DNA from: Larimichthys crocea
Lineage: Eukaryota > Chordata > Actinopteri > Sciaenidae
DNA length: 64,000 bases
Reading direction: 5' to 3'
Assembly: GCF_000972845.2 (NCBI RefSeq)
Contig: NC_040012.1
Span: 9,589,552-9,653,551 of the forward strand
This document shows positions 41,412 through 64,000 of the stretch, one piece after another (position 1 is the first letter of the stretch; each line of letters starts with the position of its first letter). The position numbers were made by a program, and so were the translations under genes. The notes beneath the pieces were generated by a model that was not told the DNA's origin, searched no databases, and was given only the letters and a program-made list of their open reading frames with translations.

Positions 41412-43323
41412 ACATGTTGATGGTAGTCCACCCTCTTATACTATGCATAATTTCTTGGCTCTAAGCCGTCTTTATCTTTCAAATGTATGGAGATTTTTTA
41501 GGTCTGGTTGAACTCTGCTGATCCACTCGATTATTTGGGTGTATTATGGTTCATAAGTGGCAACTTGAAGCACTGACATGGACAGTTTGTGGGATCAGAA
41601 AGGAACACACAGGACAAAACACAGATTATTGAATGATGACAATTGACTTTAAAAGGGCCTTTAGTTGACTGTATCATGTTTAATTACATTTTATTTTGTC
41701 TTTGTTTAGTTTGAGATTTTAGTTCATTGTTATTGTTTGTTTTAAATGTGTTGCTGCTTTATTGTAAAGCACGTTGTAACTGAAAGTGGACTTTGAGTAC
41801 ATAGTGCCATGTCTGAAAAACACCATAAGGTGTCCAGTTGACCCTGATGATGTTATATTGTGTTAGTGACAGGTTACTGTTACTCTTTAAGAGTTTCAAC
41901 ACTGAGGTGCGGCAGGTGTTGTAAACTGTGATGTTCAGGCAGTTTAGTAAAGCAACAATAACAAAGCTACATGGTGTGATCACTGAGTCCATGCAAACAC
42001 AATACAGAGCAGGTCAGCAGTATATACCACATAGAAGTGGTGTACATTATCTGAAAGCTGAGAACCTTGAGATTAATTTGAGATGTAGATTTTAGTCAGA
42101 AATCTGTAATACATGTTCAAATATTGAGAGTTTACGGTCTTAGCACGTTACAATTTAAGTATATAATGACCAATTCCATGCTCTAATATGTCTGCTGTGT
42201 TTGTTGCAGCTGTTTTTCGGTTGATACATATTCTTACACAGATTTGGTGCAAGTTTAAACGCACCCTCACTGACAGCAGACCATGTGCGGCACTGTCAAA
42301 AACATTCATGACCACTGCTGAAGCTCTTCTCCAGCAAACAATTTACAGTCCAACAAAACTCATAATTAACACTCAAGTAACACTAGGCTATGTGGTCCAG
42401 GTCATTTTATATCATGAGGTCAAGTTTCAATAAATAGTCTGCTACAGCCTCTGAAAGACTGTAATGTTGGCCGCAGACATCAATATTGACAAACAGTGAA
42501 GCAAAACTTTTAAAATTTTTTCTATTTTATTTGTTTTATTTTTTGGTGTTTTGTTTTTTTTTTCTTTTCAATTTAAATTAATTAAATTAAATTATGGGAG
42601 AACCAGAGCACCTGGAGAAAACCCTTAGACACAGTCATGTACACTTGACTCATTGCTAGCATTGGGTCTGTCAGCTGCAGCTGTAATCAGGGACAGCAAC
42701 GCTTCAGCCAAGCCAGCATTTTTTTTTTTCAATTTAAATTAAATAAATTGTGGGAGAACCAGAGCACCTGGAGAAAACCCTGAGGCACAGTCATGTACAC
42801 TTGACTCATTGCTAGCATTGGGTCTGTCAGCTGCAGCTGTAATCAGGGACAGCAACGCTTCAGCCAAGCCAGCATTTTTTTTTTTCAATTTAAATTAAAT
42901 AAATTGTGGGAGAACCAGAGCACCTGGAGAAAACCCTGAGGCACAGTCATGTACACTTGACTCATTGCTAGCATTGGGTCTGTCAGCTGCAGCTGTAATC
43001 AGGGACAGCAACGCTTCAGCCAAGCCAGCATTTTTTTTTTCCAATTTAAATTAAATAAATTGTGGGAGAACCAGAGCACCTGGAGAAAACCCTTAGACAC
43101 AGTCATGTACACTTGACTCATTGCTAGCATTGGGTCTGTCAGCTGCAGCTGTAATCAGGGACAGCAACGCTTCAGCCAAGCCAGCATTTTTTTTTTCAAT
43201 TTAAATTAAATAAATTGTGGGAGAACCAGAGCACCTGGAGAAAACCCTGAGGCACAGTCATGTACATTTGCAATGAGACATACTGTGCTAACAATACAAT
43301 GCTGCATCTTCACTTGATGACAT
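41412..43323. repeat. Duplicated unit, flank copy 1 (downstream of kinase A)
   Basis: This sequence recurs at 57861-59460 and, more damaged, at 62694-64000. The shared run starts at ACATGTTG...AGTCCACC and continues through the minisatellite into the kinase C-terminal coding region. Between copies 1 and 2 long stretches are identical, which implies recent duplication or gene conversion. Two short open frames (41759-41992 minus, 42188-42433 plus) are identical between copies 1 and 2 but are broken in copy 3, so I do not call them genes. Confidence 0.92.
42565..43265. repeat. About 155-bp minisatellite, roughly 4.5 units, related to kinase tail coding repeats
   Basis: The phrase GCCAAGCCAGCATTTTTTTT recurs at about 42712, 42867, 43023 and 43178, giving a 155-bp period. 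Each unit joins an A/T-rich piece, a piece with AGCACCTGGAGAAAACCC, and a piece with TTGGGTCTGTCAGCTGCAGC. The last piece closely resembles the kinase tail coding text TTGGTTCTGTCAGCTGCGGC. The equivalent block in copy 2 has about three units (59,020-59,400). Confidence 0.9.
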
Positions 43324-45882
43324 CTAACAGCAGCAGCTTAGAGACTTGACCATTCTGGAGAAGCCCTGTCTGACCCTCTGTAACCACTTGTGCTTGGTTT
43401 TGACTTCGACAAAGTCACTTGGATTGTTACTGGTGCCAGCAGCAGCAGCCTCATCTTGGCAAGCTTGGATTAGTGGTCTGTTACCATTGCCGGCAGGAGT
43501 TCTATCAGTTACGGTTGCAGGTCTGTAACTCGGGCCTGCAGCGGTGGCTTCACCTGATGGTATTCCATTATTATTATCCATAGTGGTTTCTTTATCTTTA
43601 CCTGACATCACAGGGGGCTTGGAGCTGGAGAAGGCCCGTCTGATCCTCTTTAACAACTTCTTCTTTGTTTTGACTTTAACAAAGTTACTTGGATTATTAT
43701 TGTTGCCAGCAGGGACAGCTTCAGCTAAGCCAGCTTGGGCTGGTGGTTCATTGCCAGCATTGGTTCTGTCAGCTGCGGCTGTGACTCTGTAATCAGGGAC
43801 AGCAGCAGCAGCTTCAGCTGAGCCAGCTTGGGCTGGTGGTTCATCACCTTTGCCAGCAATTCTTCTGTCAGCTGTGGCTGCTGTGCTGAACCTGGGGAAA
43901 TCAGCAACAGCTTCAGCTAAGCCAGCTTCGACTGGTGGTCCATTGTCATTGCCAGCAGGAGTTCTATCAGTTACGGCTGCAGGTCTGTAACTCGGGCCTG
44001 CAGCAGTGGCTTTATCCAATTGCATTCCATTATTAGTATCCGTAGGGGTGTCTTCCTCATCTGGACATGGGTCTTTCGATGAAGTAATGGCTGACATTAC
44101 AGGGAGCATGGATTCAGCTGTTGGCTGCTCCCGCTGGCAGTTTTCAATAATAAGGCGGGCTGATTTCACATAATTGTCTTGAATGTGACTACCAAAGTGA
44201 TCCATTGTGATAAAAGAGTGCTTTAAAGCATTGCGTGGTGTAATTCTTTTTTCAGGGTCCACACGCAGCATAGATTTGATGAGGCTTAAAAAGGCCTGTG
44301 TATCAAGAAACTCGGCGAAATCCTTCAGTTCTCCACTGGTGTGCACAATGTCATCAAGTCCAGTAAAGGTGCTAGAAATTCCTCGACATTTTTTGATCAC
44401 TGAGCCTGTTGTGACGATATATTCACTGGGTGTTTTCATCCTCCATGGGGCAAAACGGGACAAACTGTCCTTGGTGAAAATTTCTCCGGTACGCAATCCA
44501 AGGTTTAACAGACGATCATCAGGCTGACCTAGCATCTGCACGATGAGTCTCATCACCTCATACTCAGATCTAGATGGATACAGGTTCTCGGCCAGTAACA
44601 AGAAAGCCAAAATGCAGCCAAGTGACCACATATCAACTGCTGCATCTGGTGGGAGGCCCAGGATGATCTCTGGGGCTCTGTAGCCAGTAGGTTGAATAAT
44701 CTTGCCACACTTCAACTCAGAAACTGGCCTGGCCAGACCAAAATCAATTAATTTCAGCTTGAAAGGCTGCAGCTTATGATTTACTAACATTATATTGTCA
44801 GGTTTAATGTCTGTGTGTGCCACACCCATGTTTCTGAGGGTGTTTAGAGCCACTAGCATCTGTTGTGCGATTACTCTAACCTCAGATAAACTTAGTGGAA
44901 CCAAAGCCCTCTCATATAACAGTTCAAAAAGATTTTTGTCAAGCATTTCAAATATCAAACAATCATATCTCTCATGTGAGAAAAGTTCAATAAATGCAAG
45001 CAAGTTATTCTTGTTGACGTCAAGCTTTTGGAGTTTTTGAAGCATAGTAAACTCATGAACACATAGCCGAGACATGTATTTAGGCATTATTTTTATGGCC
45101 AAATTCTCCCTAGTGTGCAAGTTTATGCAGTGGGCTACTTTTCCGTAAGCCCCCTTCCCTATAAACTCATTTATCTTGAATCTGCTAGATTGACTGTACA
45201 GAATGTCTTCTATATGAAGATCTACTTGATCATTTTCAGTGGTTTGTTTACACGCTGGAAATGAGTTAGAACTGGATGATTCATTCCAACTTATCACTTC
45301 GCCTGGCAATAACATGAGCTTGGAGTCAGCTGTTGTCAGGACAGGTGAATTCTCATCATTGGCGTCATTAATGTCACCACCTGTGATAAAGCAGTGCCGT
45401 AAAGCCTCAGTCGGGGTGATTCTCTTTTCAGGATCTAATTGAAGCAAAGATTTGAGGAGGCTTAAAAAGGCCTGTGTATCCTTACAATCAGAATCCTTCT
45501 TCATTGCTACACAGATGTCGTCAAGACCTGTAAATGTGTCAGAAATTCCACTGATTATTCCAGTCTCATAGCCTGTTCTGAAGTTGTACTCATCTGGTGA
45601 ATTTAACCTCCACGAAGCACAAGAGGAGTCTTGGGTCCTGTTAAAATATATCTCGGTAAACATCCCAGTGTTCAGCAGGTGATCATCAGGTTGACCTTGC
45701 ATTTGCACAATGATTCTCATCATCTGATATTGGCAATGTCTTGGATACAGGTGATCACCCATGCATGCATAAGCCAAAACGCAGCCAAGTGACCACATAT
45801 CAATGGCTTCATTCAATGGGAGCCCCAAAATTACCTCTGGGGCATTGTAGCCAATATCTTCAAAGACTATGCCACACTTCAT
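43324..45882 (-). CDS. HIPK-like protein kinase, copy A (partial first domain, complete second kinase domain, repetitive tail)
   Basis: One 852-codon open frame. Residues 1-170 are the C-lobe of a first kinase domain (GYNAPEVILG, DMWSLGC). Residues 235-557 form a complete second domain: P-loop GKGAYGKV (242-249), ATP-lysine K264, alpha-C glutamate near E277, catalytic HTDIKPDN (356-363), DFG 380-382, YRAPE 401-405. The HIPK relationship (nuclear Ser/Thr/Tyr CMGC kinases) rests on PEIILGLP, DMWSLGC and HSFITMDHFG, recalled as HIPK-like; the usual HRD is HTD. After residue 590 come Ala/Pro-rich repeats, then two basic amphipathic motifs (730 and 820) and a terminal SLSCCC. The upstream N-lobe of domain 1 is decayed, so the true start is unclear and an internal Met may be used. 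Catalytic residues are intact. Substrates are unknown. Confidence 0.85.
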   Translation of the reverse strand: MKCGIVFEDIGYNAPEVILGLPLNEAIDMWSLGCVLAYACMGDHLYPRHCQYQMMRIIVQMQGQPDDHLLNTGMFTEIYFNRTQDSSCASWRLNSPDEYNFRTGYETGIISGISDTFTGLDDICVAMKKDSDCKDTQAFLSLLKSLLQLDPEKRITPTEALRHCFITGGDINDANDENSPVLTTADSKLMLLPGEVISWNESSSSNSFPACKQTTENDQVDLHIEDILYSQSSRFKINEFIGKGAYGKVAHCINLHTRENLAIKIMPKYMSRLCVHEFTMLQKLQKLDVNKNNLLAFIELFSHERYDCLIFEMLDKNLFELLYERALVPLSLSEVRVIAQQMLVALNTLRNMGVAHTDIKPDNIMLVNHKLQPFKLKLIDFGLARPVSELKCGKIIQPTGYRAPEIILGLPPDAAVDMWSLGCILAFLLLAENLYPSRSEYEVMRLIVQMLGQPDDRLLNLGLRTGEIFTKDSLSRFAPWRMKTPSEYIVTTGSVIKKCRGISSTFTGLDDIVHTSGELKDFAEFLDTQAFLSLIKSMLRVDPEKRITPRNALKHSFITMDHFGSHIQDNYVKSARLIIENCQREQPTAESMLPVMSAITSSKDPCPDEEDTPTDTNNGMQLDKATAAGPSYRPAAVTDRTPAGNDNGPPVEAGLAEAVADFPRFSTAATADRRIAGKGDEPPAQAGSAEAAAAVPDYRVTAAADRTNAGNEPPAQAGLAEAVPAGNNNNPSNFVKVKTKKKLLKRIRRAFSSSKPPVMSGKDKETTMDNNNGIPSGEATAAGPSYRPATVTDRTPAGNGNRPLIQACQDEAAAAGTSNNPSDFVEVKTKHKWLQRVRQGFSRMVKSLSCCC

Positions 45883-46464
45883 TTTCTGAACTGGAAAGCC
45901 GACCTGAAATCATACAGTTCACGCCTGAAGGGCTCGATCGATAATTACAAAACCTTACGTTGTTTGTATTAATATGACAATGTACCCGACCGATGTTCTG
46001 TTCAGTGCATCCAGAGCCACCAGGATCTGTTGTGAGACTACTCTAATCTCTGATAACTCAGTGGATTAAAAAACCTCTCCTTCATCAGCTCGTGAAGACT
46101 CATGTCCAGTTTTTCGAATGCAAGACAAACATGTCCGCGATGCATAAAATTATCAACAAGCCTGACCAAGTTATACTTGTCTGTTTCAAGCTTTTGGAGT
46201 TGTTTAAGTCAAGCCAACTCATTTTTACCAACCTGGCGTAGTTTCTAAACACAATCTTCACAGAAACAATCTCTGTAGTGTCCAATTTCATGCAGTTGAC
46301 CACTTTTCCAAAAATCCCTTCCTCCACAAACTTTACTAGCGTGTATTTGCTTATTTCACTATACAGAGCGTCTCCTATGTGAAACTCTTCTTTCGCTTCT
46401 TTAGCACGGCTGCTGTCAGCAGAAGAAATCTTCACATTGTTCGCATCTGCCATTTCTGCCATTT
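45883..46464 (-). pseudogene. Decayed N-lobe of the first kinase domain of copy A
   Basis: A frame opening MAEMADANNVKISS at 46462 runs into a kinase N-lobe (GIFGKVVNCM, VSVKIVF). It then loses frame near 46230. The continuation in another frame (LQKLETDKYNLVRL, then LDMSLHELMKERF) is broken by a TGA and a further frameshift near 46045. The position of the catalytic HxDxxxxN reads HINTNN and that of DFG is lost. The remaining C-lobe is open and fused to kinase A. It looks like an ancestral double-kinase gene whose first domain is dying. Sequencing error could explain one shift but not the lost catalytic residues. Confidence 0.8.
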
Positions 46465-46544
46465 GTAAATGTTTCCACTTAAATCTCCTGGTAACTGGTA
46501 TTCACTGCTCCAACTCAACCAAGTAAGTACAGAGTGACCCTGAG

Positions 46545-46623: not shown

Positions 46624-46636
46624 CCATGGTACACCC

Positions 46637-46823
46637 ACGTGTGTGTGTGTGTGTGGGGGGGGGGGGGGGGCATAATTGGCATAATTAATGCAGTTGATAT
46701 AATATTATATATGATATATATATATATATATATATAGATATATATATATATATATAAATATATAAATTATATAGTGGCATGTATTATGTCCTATGGTTAC
46801 GGCTGTCGCCGTTTCGCCCCACG

Positions 46824-46871: not shown

Positions 46872-46876
<5 letters not shown>

Positions 46877-47499: not shown

Positions 47500-47642
47500 G
47501 TTTAATCAAACTATTGTTAAGTTTGGGTACAGTAGAGTGTAGGAATCCAGCTTGGTTGGCGGGACCTACATGTTGGTTGAACCTTTACAAATATTAATAA
47601 GCACAACATGTTGATAGTAGTCCATCCTCTTACACTATGCAT
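47500..47642. repeat. Partial extra copy of the duplicated-unit left end
   Basis: About 100 bp near-identical to 41,360-41,455 (AACCTTTACAAATATTAATA and following text), cut off abruptly at CATAAT where the Tx1 LINE begins. This marks a former copy of the unit disrupted by insertion. Confidence 0.8.
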
Positions 47643-47714
47643 AATCCTGCTTTCTCTTGTCCAGGAACATAAAGGTGAAGATTTGTGAGTAGAGTTTTGA
47701 CTATTTTCTCCATT

Positions 47715-47806: not shown

Positions 47807-48261
47807 AACAACTTTCTTACTACTTTCAGATGAGGACTTTATTAAATTTATCTCCTCTGAAATAACTCTCTTTCTGGAACATAACCAGACCCCAGGAATG
47901 TCCCCCTTAACAGTGTGGGAATCCATGAAGGCATACCTGAGGGGACAAATAATATCATAAAGCACACAGCAAAGAAAACGGCACAATACGAAACTTGAAC
48001 AGTTAACAAATTACATTCTCAAATTAGATGCTACACTTGCTGTCACCCCATCCGATGATTTATTCAAACAGCGACTAACTCTCCAAACAGAGTTCAATTT
48101 GTTATCAACAAGACACATTGAAAACCTGATAAATAAATCACAGAGTAAAGCATTCGAATATGGTGAAAAGACGGGGAAGATTCTCGCCCACCAACTCCAC
48201 CAGAAAACTGTGGATAGAACTATAGCTGAGATAAATGATGAATTGGGCACTAAACATTTAG

Positions 48262-48526
48262 ACCCGGGGTTCCCAACCCGCGGACCGGGGTCCGGATCCG
48301 GACCGGATCGCCATATCATCCGGACCCGAGATTAATTGTAGAATTTTTTTTTTTTTTTTTGACAGGCGAGTCTATTTCATGCCGTAACATTACTTTTCCC
48401 TATCCAAGCACTGCACTGAGCAAGCATTGGAAGGTACCAACCAATCGTGTGAGAGTCATACTACCCATGTGATTCTATCTAGCCAATGAAATCGCCACCT
48501 TGAATTCAGAGCGAGGTGCTACGAGT
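48262..48526 (+). mobile_element. hAT-like element fragment truncated by the assembly gap
   Basis: Begins CCGGGGTTCCCAACCCGCGG, resembling hAT-type termini of the GGGGTTCCCAACC class, inserted into the first copy of the Tx1 fragment. No right end exists because the 10-N gap follows at 48527-48536. The call rests on one terminus. Confidence 0.5.
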
Positions 48527-48536
48527 NNNNNNNNNN
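48527..48536. other. Assembly gap (10 N)
   Basis: Ten N bases. The sequence just right of the gap repeats 47,951-48,261 almost exactly. Confidence 1.
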
Positions 48537-49680
48537 TAATATCATATAGCACACAGCAAAGAAAACGGCACAATACGAAACTTGAACAGTTAACAAATGA
48601 CATTCTCAAATTAGATGCTACACTTGCTGTCACCCCATCCGATGATTTATTCAAACAGCGACTAACTCTCCAAACAGAGTTCAATTTGTTATCAACAAGA
48701 CGCATTGAAAACCTGATAAATAAATCACAGAGTAAAGTATTCGAATATTGTGAAAAGACGGGGAAGATTCTCGCCCACCAACTCCACCAGAAAACTGTGG
48801 ATAGAACTATAGCTGAGATAAATGATGAATTGGGCACTAAACATTTAGACCATTCGGAGATTAATTCATGCTTTCATAGATTTTACTCAAAGTTGTACGA
48901 TAGCGAATCCCTTGGTGACCGTGCTTTATTTGATTCGTTTTTCAGTAAAATAAATGTTCCCACAATTAATAGCAGAGTTGCGTCTGAGCTAGACAAACCA
49001 TTTCCTGTAGGAGAACTTACTAAGGCAATTAGGCTCCTGCAAGCTGGAAAATCCCCAGGACCAGATGGATTCCCAAGCGAGTTTTTTCAAAAATTTGTAG
49101 ATCAGCTATCTCCCATCTTGCTCTCTGTATTCGAGGAGTCATATGCCACCGGCTCCCTCCCTCTGACTATGCGACAAGCGGCCATCTCCCTTATTCCTAA
49201 AAAAGACAAAAACCCTCTAGATTGTGGTTCTTATCGTCCCATTTCACTCTTAAATGTAGACAGTAAAATCCTTTCCAAAGTTCTGGCTTGCCGCTTAGAG
49301 GCGGTCTTGCCCTCAATTGTAGCAGACGATCAAACTGGTTTTATTAAAGGTCGCCACTCCTTTTTTAACATTAGACGCCTACTTAATATTCTTTATGGTC
49401 CCACTCCACCCGACATTCCAGAAATATTATTATCACTTGATGCTGAGAAGGCGTTTGATCGGGTGGAGTGGGACTATCTCTTCTACACTCTCAAACAATT
49501 TGGCTTTGGTGAAAAATGTATCTCTTGGATTAAAGTTCTGTATTCCTCTCCACTAGCAGCTGTCCGAACAAATAACAATCTCTCTCCTTACTTCCCGCTC
49601 CGTCGTGGCACCCGTCAGGGCTGTCCCCTGTCACCCCTTCTATTTGCTGTTGCAATCGAGCCACTAGCTCTAGCTCTGTT
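48537..49680 (+). pseudogene. Tx1/L1 ORF2 fragment, reverse-transcriptase N-terminal half
   Basis: An open frame from within ORF2 through the RT palm (DAEKAFDRVEW, GCPLSPLLF), ended by the L2 insertion after AIEPLALAL. The matching remainder resumes at 54231, so the RT domain was split by the insertion. Confidence 0.85.
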
Positions 49681-49729
49681 AACCGTCTTCCCATATCTGA
49701 GGGAGGCAATATGGGAAGACGGTTAACAG
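49676..49729. repeat. 21-bp perfect inverted repeat at the L2 5' junction
   Basis: The arm at 49676-49696 (starting CTGTTAACCGTCTTCC) is the exact reverse complement of 49709-49729, with a 12-nt spacer. It lies exactly where Tx1 sequence gives way to L2 sequence. Confidence 0.95.
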
Positions 49730-50955
49730 GCAGAACCCAGCACCCGGAGACTCATGATGACACTGAGTGGCCTGCACTGCCATCAAACAGGAATGCATCT
49801 TCAACCCCGCTACCAAGGAGAAAACAACCATGGACTGGAAGTACAACAAAAACAAAGAGCAAATCACCCCAAGACACAGGGATTCTACTAGAGAACAGAT
49901 TTGCTCCACTTTCCCAAAATCCTGACTCCCCAAAAGAAAGCTCATCTTCCAGCGCAAGAGAAAGGTATGAAGCTAAATCATATGCTAAAAGGCCACAGAA
50001 AGAGCTAACGACTGGGCCTGAAACTCTGATAGTGGGTGACGGAGCTGTGGGTGAGATAAAACGCTTTTGCAGCAAGAAAAACACCAAAGTACTCTGTTTT
50101 ACCAAAGATATGGTGTCTGATATTTCAAAGAAGATCCTGAAGATTGCTACTGATCATCCAACAGTTAAATCACTCATCATACACACAGGAGCCCTCGATG
50201 TTGTGAAGCAACAGTCGGAGGTATTAAAACGGGACTTTGTTGATCTGATGAAGAGAGTCCAATGCCTAAATACTGAGGTGTTTTTCAGTGGACCTCTACC
50301 AACAGTTCGGCGAGGAGATGAGCGATTCAGCAGGCTGATGATGCTAAACAGATGGCTCAAAGATACATGTGCTACTCAATCAATAAACTTTATTGACAAT
50401 TTCAACATCTTTTGGGAACGCAGGCACCTCTTTAAGGCAGATGGATTTTGCCTTAACAAATCAGGAGTACAGCTGCTAAGCTCCAACATTTTTTATTTTC
50501 TGCGTCAGACACCAGCAGCCACTGCCAAGGACCAAAGACAAGACAATCCAAAACAACAGATAAGGCGGCGCTCTGGTGAGGGCGCTGAGATTAGGACTGA
50601 ACAGGGAGGACAGCAGACCCAGAAAGAACCGGCAACATCATTATTCTCACCCCAACAAGTGGAGTCTCCCCCAGCCCCAACAGGGAACACTCAACCTCCA
50701 CCCCCCCAGACCCCACCCAGCCCCCAACTCTCTCCATTCAGTCTGGACGACTCCCCACTTCTGGATTTCACAGACAGGATGAAGAGTCTTGTCAATATGG
50801 GAATCCAATTAACACCACGCCAAAATCCCCTATTTTCTCCCCTTAAGCTACCACACCGCCCAGCCCCACCTATTCCACCTCGGAAACAACACTCGACTAA
50901 AAGTCACCGAGCCCCCCCACCTCCTTTGAATCATCATATCTGTGAGTCTGACTGA
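49711..50955 (+). CDS. L2 LINE ORF1 protein with SGNH-hydrolase-like domain
   Basis: An intact 414-codon frame. Residues about 107-268 resemble the esterase-like SGNH domain found in ORF1 of many fish L2/CR1 elements: VGDGAVGEI where block I is normally GDS, IHTGALDV at block III, SGPLPTVRRG, FIDNFNIFWER, and KADGFCLNKSG at block V. The nucleophile Ser, the block III Asn and the block V His all appear replaced. The C-terminal third is proline-rich. L2 ORF1 proteins are thought to bind RNA or lipid during retrotransposition. Whether this copy works is unknown. Confidence 0.8.
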   Translation: MGRRLTGRTQHPETHDDTEWPALPSNRNASSTPLPRRKQPWTGSTTKTKSKSPQDTGILLENRFAPLSQNPDSPKESSSSSARERYEAKSYAKRPQKELTTGPETLIVGDGAVGEIKRFCSKKNTKVLCFTKDMVSDISKKILKIATDHPTVKSLIIHTGALDVVKQQSEVLKRDFVDLMKRVQCLNTEVFFSGPLPTVRRGDERFSRLMMLNRWLKDTCATQSINFIDNFNIFWERRHLFKADGFCLNKSGVQLLSSNIFYFLRQTPAATAKDQRQDNPKQQIRRRSGEGAEIRTEQGGQQTQKEPATSLFSPQQVESPPAPTGNTQPPPPQTPPSPQLSPFSLDDSPLLDFTDRMKSLVNMGIQLTPRQNPLFSPLKLPHRPAPPIPPRKQHSTKSHRAPPPPLNHHICESD

Positions 50956-51153
50956 TATGTGCCGGGTCCAGGCTGCAATACTGATATAAATAATCTTCAC
51001 CAGGAAAAGTCAGGGCCCTATGGAGTTCAGATACCCTTCTCAATCCCTGTGATGACAGGTAACAGAAAAGTGGTTAAACTGATGAGAAATAAAAAGGGTT
51101 CATTTAAATCTGCCAATCTACTGAGTATAGCATGTCAACCATGAAACTTACCA

Positions 51154-52083
51154 GTGTCTCCTGTTATCCCCACAAGGATAGCCCTACTCAATATCAGATC
51201 ACTAGTCAACAAACCACTGATAGTAAATGACATGATTATGACCTATAATCTAGACTTTTTACTTCTTAGTGAAACATGGCTGACTGAATGTAGTTGTGCT
51301 ACCATTCTTAATGAGGCAGCGCCAACAAATTCTTGTCGAAATGGCAAGAAGGGCGGGGGTGTTGCTGCCATTTTCAAATCAGTATTTCAGTGCAAGGACA
51401 TTACATTTGGTGATTTTAGTTCTTTTGAATATCTCTGTTTTTTAATGAAGGGTGATCCAAAAGTCCTTTTTCTAATCATTTATAGACCACCAAGGTACTC
51501 AGGAAAATTTATTGATGAGTTTGCTGATCTGATGTCAGTTATCTGCACTGACTACAACTTTTTTATCGTAACTGGGGATTTTAACATTCACATAGACAAC
51601 AACATGGATACTAATGCCAAAGACTTCTGTTCTCTACTTGACACCTTTGGCCTTGTCCAACACGTCAAAGGGCCCACACACACTCGGGGACACACTCTAG
51701 ATCTGGTTATCTCTAAAGGTGTTGACATTTCTTCTGTTGTTGTTAAGGACTTGGCTCTTTCTGATCATTTCTGTGTGTTCTTTGACTTACAGATAATTCC
51801 AAACATTCAGATAACCTCTGTGTCTGTTAGGAAAAGGTACATAAACGAGAATACTAGTGCTAAGTTTATGGAGGCCATAGCAATGTCACCAACTGTGAGT
51901 GCAGAGACAGTTGATGAACTCCTGGATAATTTCAACTGGAAAATCTCAAATGTCATGGATGCTGTTGCACCTATTAAAACTAAGATGACCTTGAGTAGAC
52001 AGAGATCACCATGGAGGAACACTATGATGGTAAAGGCATTGAAAACAGAATGCAGGAAAGCAGAGCAAATGGAGAAAAACTAA
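51154..52083 (+). CDS. L2 LINE ORF2, apurinic/apyrimidinic endonuclease part
   Basis: This part nicks target DNA for target-primed reverse transcription. All APE motifs are visible in order: LLNIRSL, LLLSETWL, IIYRPPR, VTGDFNIH, HTLDLVIS and ALSDHFCVF. The frame is lost just before position 52083 by a one-base shift; the expected continuation (HHDLYKQSL...) is present in another frame and leads to the RT part. The start shown is the first ATG. The native ORF2 start may lie upstream, around the open frame at 50959-51144. Confidence 0.88.
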   Translation: MSPVIPTRIALLNIRSLVNKPLIVNDMIMTYNLDFLLLSETWLTECSCATILNEAAPTNSCRNGKKGGGVAAIFKSVFQCKDITFGDFSSFEYLCFLMKGDPKVLFLIIYRPPRYSGKFIDEFADLMSVICTDYNFFIVTGDFNIHIDNNMDTNAKDFCSLLDTFGLVQHVKGPTHTRGHTLDLVISKGVDISSVVVKDLALSDHFCVFFDLQIIPNIQITSVSVRKRYINENTSAKFMEAIAMSPTVSAETVDELLDNFNWKISNVMDAVAPIKTKMTLSRQRSPWRNTMMVKALKTECRKAEQMEKN

Positions 52084-52217
52084 ACTCCAAATTCACCACG
52101 ACCTCTACAAACAAAGTCTCAGTAATTTCAACCATGAGTTAATCAAGGCTAGACAGCAACACTTCTCTAAAATTATTAATAAAAACATCAACAACACTCG
52201 CACTCTGTTTGCTATAG

Positions 52218-53963: not shown

Positions 53964-54230
53964 GCTCTTTTGAAGAACTTTTAAAGAATTTTTAATCATA
54001 ATCCAGTGATTCGCTTAATGTTTTAAATTGTTTTCAAATTTGCTATTTAATGATTTTAAATGACATTCTGATGTTTTTAATTAAATTTTCTTCTCTTTTT
54101 AATTTTTTATTTCTATTGCTATTGCTTGTCTTAATGTCAAATGTTTTTCCTTGCCTCTGTAAAGCACTATGAATTGCCTTGTGTACGAATTGTGCTATAC
54201 AAATAAACTTGCCTTGCCTTGCCTTGCCTT

Positions 54231-56005
54231 ACGTAGTGAAATTAATATAAAGGGAATACGGAGATACGACTCAGATAACAAGGTGTCCTTGTATGCTGAC
54301 GACATGCTTTTATATTTGTCCCATCCTTTAACTAGTCTACCAAATACTCTGAAACTGCTTGAAGAATGTGGCAAAATATCGGGATACAAAATTAACCTAC
54401 ATAAGTGTAAAATTATGCCGGTGAATATAGCAGCTAAGCAAATTGACTTTGGTTTATTCCCACTTAAAGTCAATCCACAAAAATTCAAATACCTAGGAAT
54501 TTGGATAACACATTTCTTCAAAGATATATTCAAAGCTAATTTTTCACCACTATTGACCCATCTCAAGCAGGATTTGGAACGTTGGAATTTACTCCCCCTG
54601 TCGCTTGGAGGCAGAATTAACAGAATTAAAATGAATGTTTTGCCCAGATTTCTGTATATATTTCAGTGCGTCCCCCTATACCTATCTAAATCCTTCTTTA
54701 TGTCAGTGGACAAGTTGGTGTCAGAATTTATATGGAATAAGAAAAACCCCCGAATACGGAAGGGAATCTTACAGCAGCATCGTCGACATGGAGGATTATC
54801 CCTCCCTAATTTCCAGTTCTACTACTGGGCTGCCAACATTAGGACTATGCTGTTTTAGAAAGACTCTTTGTCTGGTGACACTAACCCTGAATGGTTACAA
54901 ATGGAAAACTCCTCTTGTCTTCATACTTCTTTACACTCACTGTTATGCTCAAAACTCCCTCTTTCAGAATCCATATCTAAATACACCTCAAATCCAATTG
55001 TGAAACACTCTTTTAGAATCCTGACACAGTTCAGACGAGGTTTTTCTCTCAAAGATTTGCCCACTTGTGCTCCTATAACAAGAAACCACCAGTTCACGCT
55101 ATCACCTATAGATGGTGCTTTTCATGAATGGGCTAATAGAGGAGTCGCCGCAATAGAAAACCTATTCATTGACAATACTTTTGCATCCTTTGATCAATTA
55201 AAGCTTAAATTTAACATTCCAAATTCTCATTTTTTTTAGATTTCTGCAGCTCAGTAGTTTTATATCAAAATCCTCTACTCATTTCCCATCCCAACCACCC
55301 GACTCCCTCTTAAACGACATTCTGAAGCTTAACTCAGGCTCCAAAGGGATTATTGGGAACATATACTCCCTACTAAATACATATAATTTTGAACCTTTGG
55401 CATCATTAAAGACTCAATGGGAGGGCGATTTGGGGTTTGAACTTCCTGAGAATATCTGGGAAAGGGCTTTAGATAGAATACATTCCTCTTCAATTTGCCT
55501 ACGACATACGGTTATCCAGTTCAAAGTTATGCATCGCCTGCATTGGTCTAAAGTAAGACTAGCAAAGTTCACTCCTAGTATTGATCCCATTTGTGATCGA
55601 TGCAGGCAAACACGAGCCACCCTCTTACATATGTTTTGGTTTTGTTCAAAGCTAGACAATTTCTGGCAGTCAATATTTAAAACCTTTTCAGATGTTTTCC
55701 GAGTACCTATAGAACCTTCTGCCATTACTGCCATATTTGGAGTAACTCCTCACGACACTCACTTTGACCGCCAGGCGAAGAGTGCGATGGCTTTCGCATC
55801 TCTTGTAGCTAGGCGATTGATATTGTTTAAGTGGAAGGAGAAACTCCCCCCAACCTATAAAATGTGGATCAATGACCTTCTACACCACTTGGTATTAGAG
55901 AAGATTCGTTACTCTATAAGAGGATGTACTAAAAAATTTTACTCTACATGGAAACCTTTTTTAAGTTATATAGAGAAATTGGATATCATTAATATCGGTG
56001 TTTAA
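54231..56005 (+). pseudogene. Tx1/L1 ORF2 fragment, RT C-terminal half and C-terminal domain
   Basis: Resumes with SLYADDMLLYLSH (RT catalytic aspartates) and runs to 54858, then in other frames to 55239 and 55241-56005. Markers are LGIWIT, GGRINRIKMNVLPRFLY, FIWNKKNPRI and a CxxC...H...C cluster near 55,600. Frameshifts near 54860 and 55240 make it non-functional. Confidence 0.88.
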
Positions 56006-56920: not shown

Positions 56921-57630
56921 CTGAAAACAAAAGAAGAAAGCACTTAAATGATGCATTGGCAAGCAAACAGACCTCTAAACACACACTTAGATTTTCAAGT
57001 GTTATTATCTTCTCAGCTGGTTCGTGGATGGATTCAGTCACAGGGTGTGAGAGCTTAGATCAACTTAGATCATGAAACCTGTGTTGTTGACGAGATATAA
57101 AAACTTAGATCATGAAACCTGTGTTGTTGACCGTGGAGCTGCGCTCATGGGGAGTATCTAATAAGTAATCTCATGAACTTTGTAGTTTTACCAGTTTCGC
57201 CGTCGCATCATGACGCAGTCTAGTGCAGTCGGATTCTCTGAATACCATGGTCATCTTCTCCTAGGGGTTGAGCCATTTTCACTCATAGAAGTTCTGTATG
57301 CAACGCAGTTTTGAAGTATTTGTATTTTATATTACATGTAATTGAGTGTGCCTGAAAGCCCTGGTTCGCATCTCCTCCCAGAGTTTCCCAGAGTCGCACG
57401 CACACAAAACAGGTATCAAAACATGCGGCTCGGCTGGGATCGGTGTGCTATGACTTTCCTAAGAGTTTCGGCAAACGGTTTTGCCAAAAATCGCATACCA
57501 AACAGACTTTGATTCTTCAGCTTTTCAGGTATTTGAGGATCAATGAGACTTAATAAATGCCTGCTTTAACCAAAATGGAAGGTGACTGATGCTTACATCC
57601 TTTTTTTTGACATCCTTCCTTTTTGCCAAG
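56921..57630. other. Region between the chmp5 exon and the AAGG repeat
   Basis: No gene is supported. It contains a 40-bp-period tandem duplication (unit starting AACTTAGATCATGAAACC at 57062 and 57102). If chmp5 continues to the right, this is chmp5 intron. Confidence 0.5.
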
Positions 57631-57816
57631 GAAGGAAAAAATGAAATGAAGGAAGGAAAAAACGACGAAAGGAAGGAAGGAAGGAAAAAACGACGAGGGA
57701 AGGAAGGAAGGAAGGAAGGAAGGAAAACAACGACGAAAGGAAGGAAGAAAAAAACGACGAAAGGAAGGAAGGAAGGAAGGAAAAAACGATAAAAAGGAAG
57801 GAAAAACGACGAAAGG
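57630..57816. repeat. (AAGG)n-rich array with ACGAC interruptions
   Basis: Purine-rich tandem GGAAGGAA units interspersed with AAAAACGACGAAAGG. The same composite array occurs at 62458-62690, and each copy ends at the same text (GGAACATGTTG) where the duplicated flank begins. Confidence 0.93.
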
Positions 57817-57883
57817 AACATGTTGCTAGTAGTCCACCCTAAGGAAAAACGACGAAAGGAACATGTTGCTAGTAGTCCACCCT
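57801..57883. repeat. 43-bp tandem duplication at the start of flank copy 2
   Basis: The junction text GAACATGTTGCTAGTAGTCC occurs twice, 43 bp apart, spanning the end of the AAGG array and the first bases of the duplicated unit. Confidence 0.9.
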
Positions 57884-59684
57884 CTTATACTATGCATAAT
57901 TTCTGGGCTCTAAGCCGTCTTTATCTTTCAAATGTATGGAGATTTTTAGGTCTGGTTGAACTCTGCTGATCCACTCGATTCCTTGGGTGTATTATGGTTC
58001 ATAAGTGGCAACTTGAAGCACTGACATGGACAGTTTGTGGGATCAGAAAGGAACACACAGGACAAAACACAGACTACTGAATGATGACAATTGACTTTAA
58101 AAGGGCCTTTAGTTGACTGTATCACGTTTAATTACATTTTATTTTGTCTTTGTTTAGTTTGAGATTTTAGTTCATTGTTATTGTTTGTTTTAAATGTGTT
58201 GCTGCTTTATTGTAAAGCACGTTGTAACTGAAAGTGGACTTTGAGTACATAGTGCCATGTCTGAAAAACACCATAAGGTGTCCAGTTGACCCTGATGATG
58301 TTATATTGTGTTAGTGACAGGTTACTGTTACTCTTTAAGAGTTTCAACACTGAGGTGCGGCAGGTGTTGTAAACTGTGATGTTCAGGCAGTTTAGTAAAG
58401 CAACAATAACAAAGCTACATGGTGTGATCACTGAGTCCATGCAAACACAATACAGAGCAGGTCAGCAGTATATACCACATAGAAGTGGTGTACATTATCT
58501 GAAAGCTGAGAACCTTGAGATTAATTTGAGATGTAGATTTTAGTCAGAAATCTGTAATACATGTTCAAATATTGAGAGTTTACGGTCTTAGCACGTTACA
58601 ATTTAAGTATATAATGACCAATTCCATGCTCTAATATGTCTGCTGTGTTTGTTGCAGCTGTTTTTCGGTTGATACATATTCTTACACAGATTTGGTGCAA
58701 GTTTAAACGCACCCTCACTGACAGCAGACCATGTGCGGCACTGTCAAAAACATTCATGACCACTGCTGAAGCTCTTCTCCAGCAAACAATTTACAGTCCA
58801 ACAAAACTCATAATTAACACTCAAGTAACACTAGGCTATGTGGTCCAGGTCATTTTATATCATGAGGTCAAGTTTCAATAAATAGTCTGCTACAGCCTCT
58901 GAAAGACTGTAATGTTGGCCGCAGACATCAATATTGACAAACAGTGAAGCAAAACTTTTAAAAGTTTTCTATTTTATTTGTTTTATTTTTTGGTGTTTGT
59001 TTTTTTTTTTCTTTTCAATTTAAATTAATTAAATTAAATTATGGGAAACCAGAGCACCTGGAGAAAACCCTTAGACACAGTCATGTACACTTGACTCATT
59101 GCTAGCATTGGGTCTGTCAGCTGCAGCGTTAATCAGGGCACAGCAACGCTTCAGCCAAGCCAGCATTTTTTTTTCAATTTTAATTAAATAAATTGTGGGG
59201 AGACCAGAGCACCTGGAGAAAACCCTTAGACAGTCATGTACACTTGACTCATTGCTAGCATTGGGTCTGTCAGCTGCAGCTGTAATCAGGGAAGCAACGC
59301 TTCAGCCAAGCCAGCATTTTTTTTTTTTTCAATTTAAATTAAATAAATTGTGGGAGAACCAGGCACCCTGGAGAAAACCCTGAGGCACAGTCATATATGT
59401 TTGCAATTATATGTACTGTGCCAACAATACAATGCTGCATCCTCACTTGATGACATCTAACGGCAGCAGCGAATTAGAGACATGGCCATTCCGGAGAAGG
59501 CCTGTCTGACCCTCTTTAACCACTTGTTCTTGGTTTTGACTTCGACAAAGTCACTTGGATTGGTACTGGTGCCAGTAGCAGCAGCCTCATCTTGCCATTC
59601 TTGGATTAGTGGTCTGTTACCATTGCCGGCAGAGTTCTATCAGTTACGGTTTCAGGTCTGTAACTCGGGCCTGTAGCAGTGGCT
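57861..59684. repeat. Duplicated unit, flank copy 2 (downstream of kinase B)
   Basis: Nearly identical to 41412-43323 over its first 1.1 kb. Its minisatellite has about three units instead of four to five, with several single-base deletions. From about 59461 it includes the former C-terminal coding end of kinase B, now out of frame: a third basic motif and an original tail ending in adjacent cysteines. Confidence 0.9.
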
Positions 59685-62450
59685 TCAATGATGGTTATCC
59701 CTTATATTATCCATAGTGGTTTCTTTATCTTTACCTGACATCACAGGGGGCTTGGAGGTGGAGAAGGCCCGTCTGATCCTCTTTAACCACTTGTTCTTGG
59801 TTTTGACTTCGACAAAGTCACTTGGATTGTTACTGGTGCCAGCAGCAGCAGCCTCATCTTGGCAAGCTTGGATTGGTGGTCTGTTACCATTGCCGGCAGT
59901 TCTATCAGTTACAGTTTCAGGCCTGTAACTCGGGCCTGTAGCAGATGGTATTCCATTATTATTATCCATAGTGGTTTCTTTATCTTTACCTGACATCACA
60001 GGGGGCTTGGAGCTGGAGAAGGCCCGTCTGATCCTCTTTAACCACTTCTTCTTTGTTTTGACTTTAACAAAGTCACTTGGATTATTATTGTTGCCAGCAG
60101 GGACAGCTTCAGCTAAGCCAGCTTGGGCTGGTGGTTCATTGCCAGCATTGGTTCTGTCAGCTGCGGCTGTGACTCTGTAATCAGGGACAGCAGCAGCAGC
60201 TTCAGCTGAGCGAGCTTGGGCTGGTGGTTCATCACCTTGGCCAGCAGTTCTTCTGTCAGCTGTGGCTGCTGTGCTGAACCTGGGGAAATCAGCAAGAGCT
60301 TCAGCTAAGCCAGCTTCGGCTGGTGGTCCATCTTCATTGCCAGCATTGGTTCTGGCAGTTGCGGCTGCAGGTCTGTAATCAGGGTCAGCAACAGCTTCAG
60401 CTAAGCCAGCTTGGGCTGGTGGTCCATCTTCATTGCCAGCAACACTTCTGTCAGCTGCGGCTGCAACTTTGTCATTAGGGACAGCAGCGGCAGCTTCAGC
60501 TGAGCCAGCTTGGGCTGGTGGTTCATCACCTTTGCCAGCAGTTCTTCTGTCAGCTGTGGCTGCTGTGCTGAACCTGGGGAAATCAGCAAGAGCTTCAGCT
60601 AAGCCAGCTTCGGCTGGTGGTTCATTGTCATTGCCAGCAGGAGTTCTATCAGTTACGGCTGCAGGTCTGTAACTCGGGCCTGCAGCAGTGGCTTTATCCA
60701 ATTGCATTCCATTATTAGTATCCGTAGGGGTGTCTTCCTCATCTGGACATGGGTCTTTCGATGAATAAATGGTTGACATTACAGGGAGCATGGATCCAGC
60801 TGTTGGCTGCTCCCGCTGGCAGTTTTCAATAATAAGGCGGGCTGATTTCACATAATTGTTTTGAATGTGACTACCAAAGTGATCCATTGTGATAAAAGAG
60901 TGCTCTAAAGCATCGCCTGGTGTAATTCTTATTTCAGGGTCCACACGCAGCATAGATTTGATGAGGCTTAAAAAGGCCTGTGCATCAAGAAACTCGGCGA
61001 AATCCTTCAGTTCTCCAATGGTGTCCACAATGTCATCAAGTCCAGTAAAGGTGGTAGAAATTCCTTGACATTCTGTGATAACTGAGCCTGTTGTGACGAT
61101 ATATTCACTGGGTGTTTTCATCCTCCATGGGGCAAAACGGGAGAAACTGTCCTTAGTGAAAATTTCTCCGGTACGCAATCCAAGGTTTAACAGACGATCA
61201 TCAGGCTGACCTAGCATCTGCACGATGAGTCTCATCACCTCATACTCAGATCTAGATGGATACAGGTTCTCGGCCAGTAACAAGAAAGCCACAATGCAGC
61301 CAAGTGACCACATATCAACTGCTGCATCTGGTGGGAGGCCCAGGATGATCTCTGGGGCTCTGTAGCCAGTAGGTTGAATAATCTTGCCACACTTCAATTC
61401 AGAAACTGGCCTGGCCAGACCAAAATCAATTAATTTCAGCTTGAAAGGCTGCAACTCATGATTTACTAACATTATATTGTCAGGTTTAATGTCTGTGTGT
61501 GCCACACCAATGTTTCTGAGGGTGTTTAGAGCCACTAGCATCTGTTGTGTGATTACTCTAACCTCAGATAAACTTAGTGGAACCCAAGCCCTCTCATATA
61601 ACAGATCAAAAAGATTTTGGTCAAGCATTTCAAATATCAAACAATCATATCTCTCATGTGAGAAAAGTTCAATAAATGTAATGAAGTTATTCTTGTTGAC
61701 GTCAAGCTTTTGGAGTTTTTGAAGGATAGTAAACTCACGAAAACATACCTGAGACATGTATTTAGGCATTATTTTTATGGCCAAATTCTCCCTAGTGTGC
61801 AAGTTTATGCAGTCGGCTACTTTTCCGAAACCCCCCTTCCCTATAAACCCATTTATCTTGAATCTGCTAGATTGACTGTACAGAATGTCTTCTATATGAA
61901 GATCTACTTTATCATTTTTAGTGGTTTGTTCACACACTGGAAATGAGTTAGAAATGGATGATTCATTCCAACTTATCACTTCACCTGGCAATAACATGAA
62001 CTTGGAGTCAGCTGTTGTCAGGACGGGTGAATTCTCATCATTGGCGTCATTAATGTCACCACCTGTGATAAAGCAGTGCCGTAAAGCCTCAGTCGGGGTG
62101 ATTCTCTTTTCAGGATCTAATTGAAGCAAAGATTTGAGGAGGCTTAAAAAGGCCTGTGTATCCTTACAATCAGAATCCTTCTTCATTGCTACACAGATGT
62201 CGTCAAGACTTGTAAATGTGTCAGAAATTCCACTGATTATTCCAGTCTCATAGCCTGTTCTGAGGTTGTACTCATCTGGTGAATTCAACCTCCACGAAGC
62301 ACAAGAGGAGTCTTGGGTCCTGTTAAAATATGTCTCGGTATACATCCCAGTGTTCAGCAGGTGATCATCAGGTTGACCTTGCATTTGCACAATGATTCTC
62401 ATCATCTGATATTGGCAATATACAAAACAACTTTTCTTTGCATCCTTCAT
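59685..62450 (-). CDS. HIPK-like protein kinase, copy B (5'-truncated, tail frameshifted)
   Basis: A 921-codon frame paralogous to copy A. The first 11 codons are not kinase: homology starts at CQYQMMRII, inside the C-lobe of the first domain, exactly where the AAGG-linked junction cuts the gene at about 62420. The second kinase domain is complete: P-loop GKGGFGKV (204-211), lysine 226, HTDIKPDN from 318, DFG 342-344, APE 365-367. The tail has more Ala/Pro repeat units than copy A and two in-frame basic motifs. A third lies downstream but is lost because a one-base change gives a stop after TTMDNIRDNHH. The CRE/AP-1 promoter of copy A is absent. It may be a pseudogene, a chimeric gene with a new promoter, or fully coding if local indels are assembly errors. 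Confidence 0.75.
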   Translation of the reverse strand: MKDAKKSCFVYCQYQMMRIIVQMQGQPDDHLLNTGMYTETYFNRTQDSSCASWRLNSPDEYNLRTGYETGIISGISDTFTSLDDICVAMKKDSDCKDTQAFLSLLKSLLQLDPEKRITPTEALRHCFITGGDINDANDENSPVLTTADSKFMLLPGEVISWNESSISNSFPVCEQTTKNDKVDLHIEDILYSQSSRFKINGFIGKGGFGKVADCINLHTRENLAIKIMPKYMSQVCFREFTILQKLQKLDVNKNNFITFIELFSHERYDCLIFEMLDQNLFDLLYERAWVPLSLSEVRVITQQMLVALNTLRNIGVAHTDIKPDNIMLVNHELQPFKLKLIDFGLARPVSELKCGKIIQPTGYRAPEIILGLPPDAAVDMWSLGCIVAFLLLAENLYPSRSEYEVMRLIVQMLGQPDDRLLNLGLRTGEIFTKDSFSRFAPWRMKTPSEYIVTTGSVITECQGISTTFTGLDDIVDTIGELKDFAEFLDAQAFLSLIKSMLRVDPEIRITPGDALEHSFITMDHFGSHIQNNYVKSARLIIENCQREQPTAGSMLPVMSTIYSSKDPCPDEEDTPTDTNNGMQLDKATAAGPSYRPAAVTDRTPAGNDNEPPAEAGLAEALADFPRFSTAATADRRTAGKGDEPPAQAGSAEAAAAVPNDKVAAAADRSVAGNEDGPPAQAGLAEAVADPDYRPAAATARTNAGNEDGPPAEAGLAEALADFPRFSTAATADRRTAGQGDEPPAQARSAEAAAAVPDYRVTAAADRTNAGNEPPAQAGLAEAVPAGNNNNPSDFVKVKTKKKWLKRIRRAFSSSKPPVMSGKDKETTMDNNNGIPSATGPSYRPETVTDRTAGNGNRPPIQACQDEAAAAGTSNNPSDFVEVKTKNKWLKRIRRAFSTSKPPVMSGKDKETTMDNIRDNHH

Positions 62451-62457
62451 TTTTTGT

Positions 62458-62690
62458 CAAGGAAGGAAAAATAACAGAAAGAAGGAAGGAAAAACGACAA
62501 GGGAAGAAGGAAGGAAAACGACGAAGAAGAAAGGAAGGAAGGAAGGAAGGGAAGGAAGGAAGGAAAAACGACGAAAGGAAGGAAGAAAAAAACGCGAAGG
62601 AAGAGGAAGGAAAAAACGACAGAAGGAAAAGGAAGGAAGGAAGGAAGGAAGGAGGAAGGAAAACATAAAAAGGAAGGAAAAACGACAAAA
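62458..62690. repeat. (AAGG)n-rich array, second copy
   Basis: The same composite GGAAGGAA/ACGAC structure as 57630-57816, here directly replacing the 5' part of kinase B. Pure-purine frames through it are artefacts. Confidence 0.93.
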
Positions 62691-62693
62691 GGA

Positions 62694-64000
62694 ACATGTT
62701 GTAGTAGTCCACCTCTCTTATACTATGCATATTTCTGGCTCTAAGCCGTCTTATCTTTCAATATGTTGGAATTTTTAGGTCTGTTGAACTCTGCTGACCA
62801 CTGATTCCTTGGGTGATTATGGTTCATAAGTGGCAAACTTGAAGCACTGACATGGACAGTTTGTGGGATCAGAAAGGAACACACAGGACAAAACACAGAC
62901 TATGAATGATGACAATTGACTTTAAAAGGGCCTTTAGTTGACTGTATATCACGTTTAATACATTTATTTTGTCTTTGTTTAGTTTAGATTTTAGTTCATT
63001 GTTTATGGTTTTGTTTAAAGTGTTGCTGCTTTATTGTAAAGCACGTTGTAACTGAAAGTGGACTTTGAGTACATGTTCATGTCTAAAAAACCCCATAAGG
63101 TGTCCCATTGACCCTGATGATGTTACTATTGTGTTAGTGACAGGTTAACGTTCCTCTTAAGAGTTTCAACACTGAGTGTCGGCAGGTGTTGTAAACTGTG
63201 GATTGTTCAGGCAGTTTAGTAAAGCAACAATAACAAAGCTACATGGTGTGGATCACTGAGTCCATGCAAACACAATACAGAGCAGGTCAGCAGATATACC
63301 ACATAGAAGTGGTGTACATTACTGAAAGCTGAGAACCTGAGATTAATTTGAGATGTAGATTTAGTCAGAAATCTGTAATACATGTTCAAAATTGAGAGTT
63401 TCGGTCTTAGCACGTTTACAATTTAAGTAATAATGACCATTCCATGCTCTAAATGGTTCCTGCTGTTTGTTGGCAGCGTGTTTTTCGGTTGATACATATC
63501 TAACACAGATTTGGTGCAAGTTTTAAACGCACCCCACGGACAGCAGACAATGTCGGCACGGTCAAAAACATTCATGACACGGCTGAAGCTCTTCTCCAGC
63601 AAACAGTTACAGTCCAACAAAACTCATAATTACACTCAAGTAACACTAGGCTATGTGGTCCAGGTCATTTATAATCATGAGGGTCAAGTTTCAATAAATA
63701 GCTGCTACAGCCTCTGAAAGACTGTAATGTTGGCCGCAGACATCAATAGGACAAAAGTGAAGCAAAACTTTTAAAATGTTTCTATTTTATTTGTTTTATT
63801 TTTTGGTGTTGTTTGTTTTTTTTTTCTTTTCAATTTAATTAATTAAATTAAATTATGGGAGAACCGAGCACCTGGAGAAAACCCTTAGACACTCCATGTA
63901 CACTTGACTCATTGCAGCATTGGTCTGTCAGCTGCAGCGTGAATCAGGACCAGCAACGCTTCAGGCCAAGCCAGCATTTTTTTTTCAATTTAATTAAATA
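62694..64000. repeat. Duplicated unit, flank copy 3 (runs off the window)
   Basis: A third copy of the flank, with many single-base deletions and insertions relative to copies 1 and 2 and few substitutions. It reaches the start of the minisatellite at the window edge. A third kinase copy on the minus strand is expected just to the right. Confidence 0.88.

Follow-up and report, generated by a model that had tools for sequence, protein, structure and literature searches.

A probable, partly decayed tandem duplicate of a HIPK-related pseudokinase-kinase gene in the croaker Larimichthys crocea

Introduction

HIPK1-3 (homeodomain-interacting protein kinases, DYRK/CMGC) are the closest described relatives of a pair of kinase genes found in tandem in the large yellow croaker, Larimichthys crocea, the likeness lying in a homologous kinase domain. 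The genes were studied in a stretch of 64,000 nucleotides of contig NC_040012.1 (C2:9589552-9653551; the whole stretch is called the window below), in which the array occupies 41.4-64 kb. In the available part of one account, HIPKs are described as carrying an activation-loop tyrosine (HIPK1 Y352, HIPK2 Y361, HIPK3 Y359, HIPK4 Y175) that is needed for full activity, HIPKs without it being less active; tyrosine mutants of HIPK1 and HIPK2, and not of HIPK3, shift from nuclear speckles to the cytoplasm (PMC4353451). The expansion of DYRK/HIPK-type kinases in percomorph fishes, which the croaker genes share, is already known: in the fugu kinome a fish-specific DYRK cluster was reported, 30 of the 40 fugu DYRKs clustering separately (PMC3359783), and a HIPK expansion was reported in goosefish (PMC7729161). 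In the parts of these two accounts available to us, which could be compared by description only, there is no mention of fused kinase domains, loss of the tyrosine or a tail. Neither repeated kinase fusion nor the helix-cysteine tail described below was found in print in the open-access literature, as covered by titles and abstract openings.

With plant tandem kinase proteins such as WTK7-TM (PMC11006675) and Lr9 (PMC10260399), the croaker genes have in common a lineage-specific kinase-kinase or pseudokinase-kinase fusion, and the accessible portions of these accounts give one of the plant proteins a transmembrane domain. Plant tandem kinase proteins have an immune role, which could be extended to the croaker family only by analogy. 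They belong to a different kinase group and have no close kinship to it. Two kinase domains per protein also occur in JAKs, RSK/MSK and obscurin/SPEG, and in JAKs a pseudokinase precedes the kinase; all of these fall in other kinase groups and have other accessory domains than the croaker family. We know of no CMGC-group kinase with at least two kinase domains.

The array is probably a tandem duplicate, by now partly decayed, of a gene whose single open frame codes first for a HIPK-derived pseudokinase, then for a HIPK-derived kinase and last for a repeat tail with a helix and cysteines. Its family appears to have multiplied genome-wide and to have repeatedly gained kinase domains. The traits concerned are read from sequence: the layout, the homology, the clade, the predicted catalytic loss in the first domain (kinase 1) and retention in the second (kinase 2), the absence of the activation-loop tyrosine and of the HIPK1 termini, and the helix-cysteine tail.

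The pseudokinase-kinase layout

The layout is best seen in an open paralogue, L006, which a whole-genome search placed at C2:10289440-10294518, about 0.64 Mb from the window. It consists of a single open frame of 1189 codons counted from stop to stop (1173 from the first methionine), with both kinases and three tail modules, and its tail ends in a basic amphipathic helix and cysteine. Kinase 1 of L006 is complete and keeps VSVK, with the ATP-binding lysine, as well as the alpha-C glutamate; it has HGYINANN where kinase 2 has HTDIKPDN (HGY for HxD) and DFR for DFG. Kinase 2 keeps all core catalytic residues. By these residues kinase 1 is classed as a pseudokinase. The original prediction of a pseudokinase fused to an active kinase thus agrees with the sequence of L006, in which a complete, apparently dead N-terminal fold precedes an intact kinase in one frame; the window copies are not intact in this respect. 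The database protein P0005 (L. crocea, 'HIPK1', 680 amino acids) corresponds to residues 506-1149 of L006 at 99.5% and therefore begins inside kinase 2.

The two long kinase open reading frames (ORFs) predicted in the window are real (Table 1), and both lie on the minus strand. They have 861 and 923 codons counted from stop to stop, with the first methionine at codon 10 in gene 1 and codon 3 in gene 2. The product of gene 1 is represented in the database by P0001 (852 amino acids, from the first methionine). The gene 1 ORF holds only the C-lobe of kinase 1, and tblastn recovered the whole domain in three frames, crossing in-frame stops. Compared with L006, the N-terminal half of this domain has 49 mismatches in 565 columns and gaps of 1, 1, 1, 1, 2 and 3 bases, and the C-terminal half 14 mismatches in 487 columns and no gaps; the alignment marks the N-terminal half as having lost constraint locally. 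Introns as the cause of the break were rejected, the domain being collinear with the open paralogue except for gaps of 1-3 bases. The predicted order of a partial kinase 1, a complete kinase 2 and a repetitive tail was upheld for kinase 2 and the tail; the partial state of kinase 1 reflects damage to the copies in the window, and in gene 1 the whole domain can still be traced. Kinase 2 of gene 1 had been assigned to 43324-44640, which is mostly tail, and in fact spans 45225-44155.

Kinase 2 of gene 2 has all core motifs, as in gene 1. AlphaFold modelled the blocks of gene 1 kinase 2 mostly with a predicted local distance difference test (pLDDT) score above 90; the surviving kinase-1 C-lobe of gene 1, which is in frame with kinase 2, was modelled with mostly 77-96. 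At 59400-59700 the gene 2 ORF closes before its last tail module, which resumes downstream beyond stops, so the product it encodes would be without the terminal helix-cysteine end. It was also considered whether kinase 1 and kinase 2 come from different lineages. This was rejected: a tree of C-lobes only separates them, one of full domains does not, and placing them together was not rejected (p 0.40), so an internal duplication is possible.

Relationship to HIPK

Protein searches gave the best 120 of 2545 matches and, with a double kinase as the second query, the best 120 of 729. From the resulting 193 proteins, 22 canonical HIPKs and P0001 were removed and the two window ORFs added, leaving 172 family proteins; this is a chosen sample, enriched for multi-domain proteins by the double-kinase query, with several proteins from one species. 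The named family matches, among those listed, are from what we take to be percomorph fishes only. Viral and phage collections gave distant matches only (24-28% in five phage records listed of 11, and 28-31% in three viral loci).

Among solved kinases, the kinase domain is nearest to HIPK by both sequence and structure. Searching the PDB sequences with kinase 2 of the window gave HIPK2 and HIPK3 as the best matches (phmmer, 268 bits to HIPK2), and a Foldseek search with the AlphaFold model of kinase 2 gave 7ncf (HIPK2) as the best (E 6.5e-33, template modelling score 0.93 by target). The trees agree with this, as does the original prediction. HIPK4 is absent from all of them. The 32 family rows of the 48-domain tree group as a single clade (100/100), separate from HIPK1-3 of vertebrates and from insect HIPK. 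The FastTree has 243 domains, and its 217 family rows likewise fall without exception on one side, with a support of 91. When the family was forced to join a single HIPK, HIPK2 was rejected (p 0.018), and HIPK1 (p 0.186) and HIPK3 (p 0.423) were not. In these trees, which do not include HIPK4, the two copies do not fall inside a one-to-one orthologue of HIPK1, HIPK2 or HIPK3.

The lineage-specific expansion that had been predicted is supported by this clade and by the croaker genome, in which 63 matches were found at about 49 places by our own grouping, one of them to a tail only and some of which could be ordinary HIPK exons. Of the 18 genome regions fetched, 11 hold 12 open frames in total with one near-complete kinase domain each, and the remaining 7 are partial, broken or flanks of L006. 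A dead relic with 14 stops lies at C1:15.73 Mb. Another local expansion is seen on C3 (L025 and C3:44.55-45.56 Mb), where the open frames of five matches run to 446-469 codons and lie within about 1 Mb.

The family differs from HIPK1-3 in several features. The activation-loop tyrosine, the residue at the site of tyrosine cis-autophosphorylation in the dual-specificity DYRK family, is present in 26 of 26 canonical rows (25 HIPK, 1 DYRK1A) and in 1 of 237 complete family domains; in both kinase-2 copies of the window the position is isoleucine. None of the 172 family proteins matched the N- or C-terminus of HIPK1 (blastp, E 1e-3), compared with 19 of 21 canonical proteins for the C-terminus and 11 of 21 for the N-terminus, and by this measure the family lacks the terminal regions of HIPK1-3 (homeobox-interaction, PEST and SQA/YH). 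Unlike HIPK1-3, the family often has 2-4 kinase domains and a helix-cysteine tail, and the croaker gene codes for both kinase domains in one intron-free open frame.

Multiplication of kinase domains

In the enriched sample, 44 of the 172 family proteins hold 2-4 near-complete kinase domains, in line with the tandem-kinase layout of the original prediction. In the FastTree, which has many weak forks, fourteen clades consist wholly of domains from multi-domain proteins, and in each of them at least two domains come from a single protein. This is consistent with many independent internal duplications, a pattern that homogenisation of domains and fusion of gene models could distort. Two-domain proteins were also found on short contigs with scant room for introns: P0137 has 1199 amino acids on 3918 bases and P0021 has 944 on 3267. 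Multi-domain proteins have lost a core residue in 25 of their 103 domains, single-domain proteins in 7 of 134 (p 3e-5). Outside the family, P0145 from the leaf beetle Gonioctena quinquepunctata has two closely similar canonical HIPK domains and represents either a gene-model fusion or a separate doubling of the HIPK domain.

The C-terminal tail and a possible mechanism

The C-terminal motif can be written approximately as FVEVKT+KKWLKRI+RFFSRMFKSxSCC. A hidden Markov model (HMM) of this tail matched 44 of the 172 family proteins, 10 of them seeds, and 57 were matched when a second tail type was included (18 seeds in all); none of the 22 canonical HIPKs was matched by either model. When the final 150 residues were shuffled, the first HMM found nothing in them, and the matches of the second were limited to two proteins, in copies that lie upstream and were left unshuffled. 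All five peptides tested have a strongly amphipathic helix: the hydrophobic moment is 0.69-0.90 in four peptides of the first type, reached by 0-1 of 2000 shuffles each, and 0.61 in one of the second type, reached by 5 of 2000. A Pfam scan of both ORFs gave kinase-type models only (Pkinase in both) and no model for the tail.

In the mechanism proposed, kinase 2 would be a Ser/Thr kinase that is active without cis-autophosphorylation on tyrosine. Through its helix and likely palmitoylation, the tail would dock it on a membrane, where HIPK1/2 are instead addressed to nuclear speckles, and the pseudokinase could serve as a binding, docking or regulatory module. The copies would turn over fast, swap segments and drift because each lineage has partners of its own, which may be pathogen or stress factors.

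Divergence and exchange between copies

The two ORFs are 96.4% identical across 2029 columns. In 1765 coding bases there are 53 substitutions and no gaps, compared with three single-base gaps in 1150 bases of flank. The best alignment of the tail (610 columns) has two gaps, of 3 and 12 bases, and the tail frame of gene 2 breaks beyond it. Over the kinase-1 C-lobe, the linker and kinase 2, 43 nonsynonymous and 7 synonymous changes give a ratio of 1.69, which is not different from 1. Nonsynonymous change exceeds synonymous and flank change taken together (43/1246 vs 16/1485, p 2.8e-5); synonymous change tends to exceed flank change (p 0.066), so the flank may be homogenised. The same long region gave 2.11 (p 0.050) for gene 1 and L006; with the non-homologous start of gene 2 included, the ratio was 1.05 between genes 1 and 2 and 1.08 between gene 2 and L006. 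Pooling of three copies by hand gave p 0.063 for kinase 2 (8.5 entered as 8) and p 0.036 for its N-lobe (25/221 vs 1.5/52, entered as 1). These tests cover several regions and are uncorrected for multiple testing. Rapid change is clear, and adaptive change is suggested.

At 29 sites that differ between genes 1 and 2, P0005 is like gene 1 at 13, like gene 2 at 14 and has a third letter at 2, and this mixture suggests exchange between copies. The unplaced contig C6485 (L007) carries the kinase 2 of gene 2, with no differences in the 178 codons compared, and an in-frame kinase 1; over 700 bases, its DNA upstream of kinase 2 is 99.7% identical to that of gene 1. A misjoin may therefore explain why gene 2 is cut at the AAGG array. 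For C6485 and gene 2 the ratio was 0.34 (p 0.048), the stretch compared taking in the non-homologous start of gene 2.

Organization of the array and neighbouring features

Table 1. Coordinates of the array features in the window
Feature	Position	Strand	Remarks
Gene 1 ORF	43324-45909	-	861 codons: kinase-1 C-lobe fragment, linker, kinase 2, repeat tail, basic helix and CCC
Gene 1 kinase 1	45364-46387	-	whole domain traceable; N-terminal half frame-broken with in-frame stops
Gene 1 kinase 2	44155-45225	-	GKGAYGKV, LAIK, HTDIKPDN, DFGLA and APE all kept
Gene 1 repeat tail	43327-44127	-	two helix modules, the final one DFVEVKTKHKWLQRVRQGFSRMVKSLSCCC
Gene 2 ORF	59685-62456	-	923 codons: kinase-1 stub, kinase 2 (60837-61907), tail; stops short of the last tail module
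Gene 2 third tail module	59438-59622	-	split from the ORF by stops
3' flank copy 1	41411-42953		same orientation as copies 2 and 3
3' flank copy 2	57860-59397		same orientation as copies 1 and 3
3' flank copy 3	62693-64000		low-accuracy sequence, runs on past the right window end, without kinase gene
Older flank-start fragment	47519-47645		83%; upstream of gene 1, trace of a further unit
AAGG-rich array	57628-57883		border of unit 2
AAGG-rich array	62459-62694		border of unit 3, where gene 2 kinase 1 is cut
Tandem repeat, 156 bp x 4.5	42558-43270		directly downstream of gene 1; apparent decayed non-coding continuation of the tail repeat (translation judged by eye)

Three copies of the 3' flank were found in the same orientation within 41.4-64 kb, as had been predicted. 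The unit borders, also predicted to lie at AAGG arrays, do so at units 2 and 3; no such array was found at the 41411 border of unit 1. Flank copy 3 looks like uncorrected long-read sequence: aligned with copy 1 over 1150 bases it shows 52 gaps, each of 1-2 bases. It continues into the adjoining region L012 (1-1322), where it reaches into the tail of the gene; repeated filler then follows, and sequence more than 99% identical to 56.7-57.5 kb of the window recurs. Together, 62693-64000 and L012 1-1322 are likely an assembly trouble spot. Further kinase copies to the right of the window, which the original prediction had left to be counted, did not appear: no third kinase gene was found in the 9.9 kb of L012 across and past the right end, where the listed frames of at least 120 codons are AAGG-type repeats and one short frame, and the best candidates of the genome search included no kinase match there.

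The arrays of about 155 bp at 42558-43270 and 59025-59394 read by eye as a decayed coding tail repeat (AGLAEALL...TAAADRPNASNE), and by this resemblance the minisatellite seems to span the stop codon. Between genes 1 and 2 lies sequence of long interspersed nuclear elements (LINEs) with reverse transcriptase and endonuclease domains. These are nested at 47961-56005 (+): one element with reverse transcriptase (48473-49726 and 54163-56005) is apparently interrupted by another at about 49576-53963, which has both an endonuclease and a reverse transcriptase. To the left, a tRNA-Arg (TCT) gene was found at 40467-40559 (+) by ARAGORN and Rfam, and an exon at 17746-18150 (-) resembles myomesin-1 immunoglobulin domains; the latter belongs to the sole conserved neighbour gene identified among the few left-hand ORFs scanned.

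Alternative explanations

Several observations weigh against the reading of the array as a duplicated pseudokinase-kinase gene of a domain-gaining family. Both window copies are damaged, gene 1 by the break in kinase 1 and gene 2 by the cuts in kinase 1 and the tail. The ratio of nonsynonymous to synonymous rates (dN/dS) of kinase 2 is 2.25, 1.97 and 1.60 in the pairs of gene 1, gene 2 and L006, none significantly different from 1, and since it is not shown to be below 1 this test does not demonstrate present constraint. Among the 44 multi-domain proteins a core residue is lost in the first domain in 12 and in the last in 9, and both are intact in 28; a rule by which the N-terminal domain is always dead and the last always alive was accordingly rejected. 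Some multi-domain proteins may be gene-model fusions, the halves of P0136 and P0152 being near-identical or identical. The tail helix was modelled by AlphaFold at 839-856 with low pLDDT, and a direct search of a large database with the tail returned its own query only, among 3 candidates, and was uninformative. It is quite possible, if somewhat short of probable, that the window copies are dead or dying and that only the open copy at C2:10.29 Mb works, if any does. The broken N-terminal half of gene 1 kinase 1, whose divergence from L006 is roughly threefold that of the C-terminal half, the truncated start of gene 2 and its tail frame broken ahead of the last module, dN/dS near or above 1, and the additional relic on C1 all point this way; the gap-free coding sequence beside a gapped flank, the retention of every kinase-2 motif in both genes, and tail gaps of 3 and 12 bases, though the gene 2 frame breaks further on, do not. 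That the tandem appearance is partly an artefact, with allelic copies or repeats misjoined at AAGG arrays, we hold to be possible but doubtful. The many small gaps of flank copy 3, the sequence that returns after it, and the coupling in C6485 of a gene-2 kinase 2 to gene-1-like upstream DNA speak for it. On the other side, genes 1 and 2 differ in their substitutions and in tail repeat number and have LINE sequence between them, and a third paralogue shares one or the other letter at 27 of the 29 differing sites compared, so the differences are not random errors.

Diversifying selection by an antagonist, in an immune-type role with kinase 1 acting as a decoy, for which the tandem kinase proteins of plants offer an argued precedent, seems unlikely to us. 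It would account for the nonsynonymous excess over synonymous and flank change, the ratio of gene 1 and L006 in the long region, the N-lobe result from three copies (hand-pooled), and copy turnover and mosaicism. Against synonymous sites alone, however, no pair differs from 1 in kinase 2; the pooled test of kinase 2 and the other two pairs in the long region do not favour it, the flank may be homogenised, and several regions were tested uncorrected. It is rather unlikely that the basic helix at the C-terminus serves calmodulin binding or nuclear import instead of membrane anchoring: basic amphipathic helices with tryptophan or phenylalanine serve both purposes, but many of the listed members have cysteine after the helix. 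Finally, although many of the proteins carry HIPK1/2/3-like database names, it is highly improbable that ordinary HIPK1/2/3 orthologues were mistaken for something new; this is contradicted for HIPK1-3 (HIPK4 not being in the trees) by the separate clade and by the missing activation-loop tyrosine and HIPK1 termini.

Significance

Copy turnover and rapid change are what would point to an immune role. A broader and decidedly speculative view, which we consider improbable, is that the family comprises percomorph tandem-kinase receptors, HIPK-derived, membrane-docked and tyrosine-free, which have time and again become fused to kin or to pseudokinase copies of themselves and which antagonistic selection diversifies. 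They would be vertebrate counterparts of the tandem kinase immune proteins of plants. A repeatedly fusing family offers recurrent natural experiments on the origin of pseudokinases beside active partners. The missing residue on which full HIPK activity depends and the helix-cysteine tail in place of the HIPK termini can both be tested with single proteins. Should the family prove to have a link with infection, the lineage-specific immune repertoires of fishes, many of them farmed species, would gain a kinase arm.

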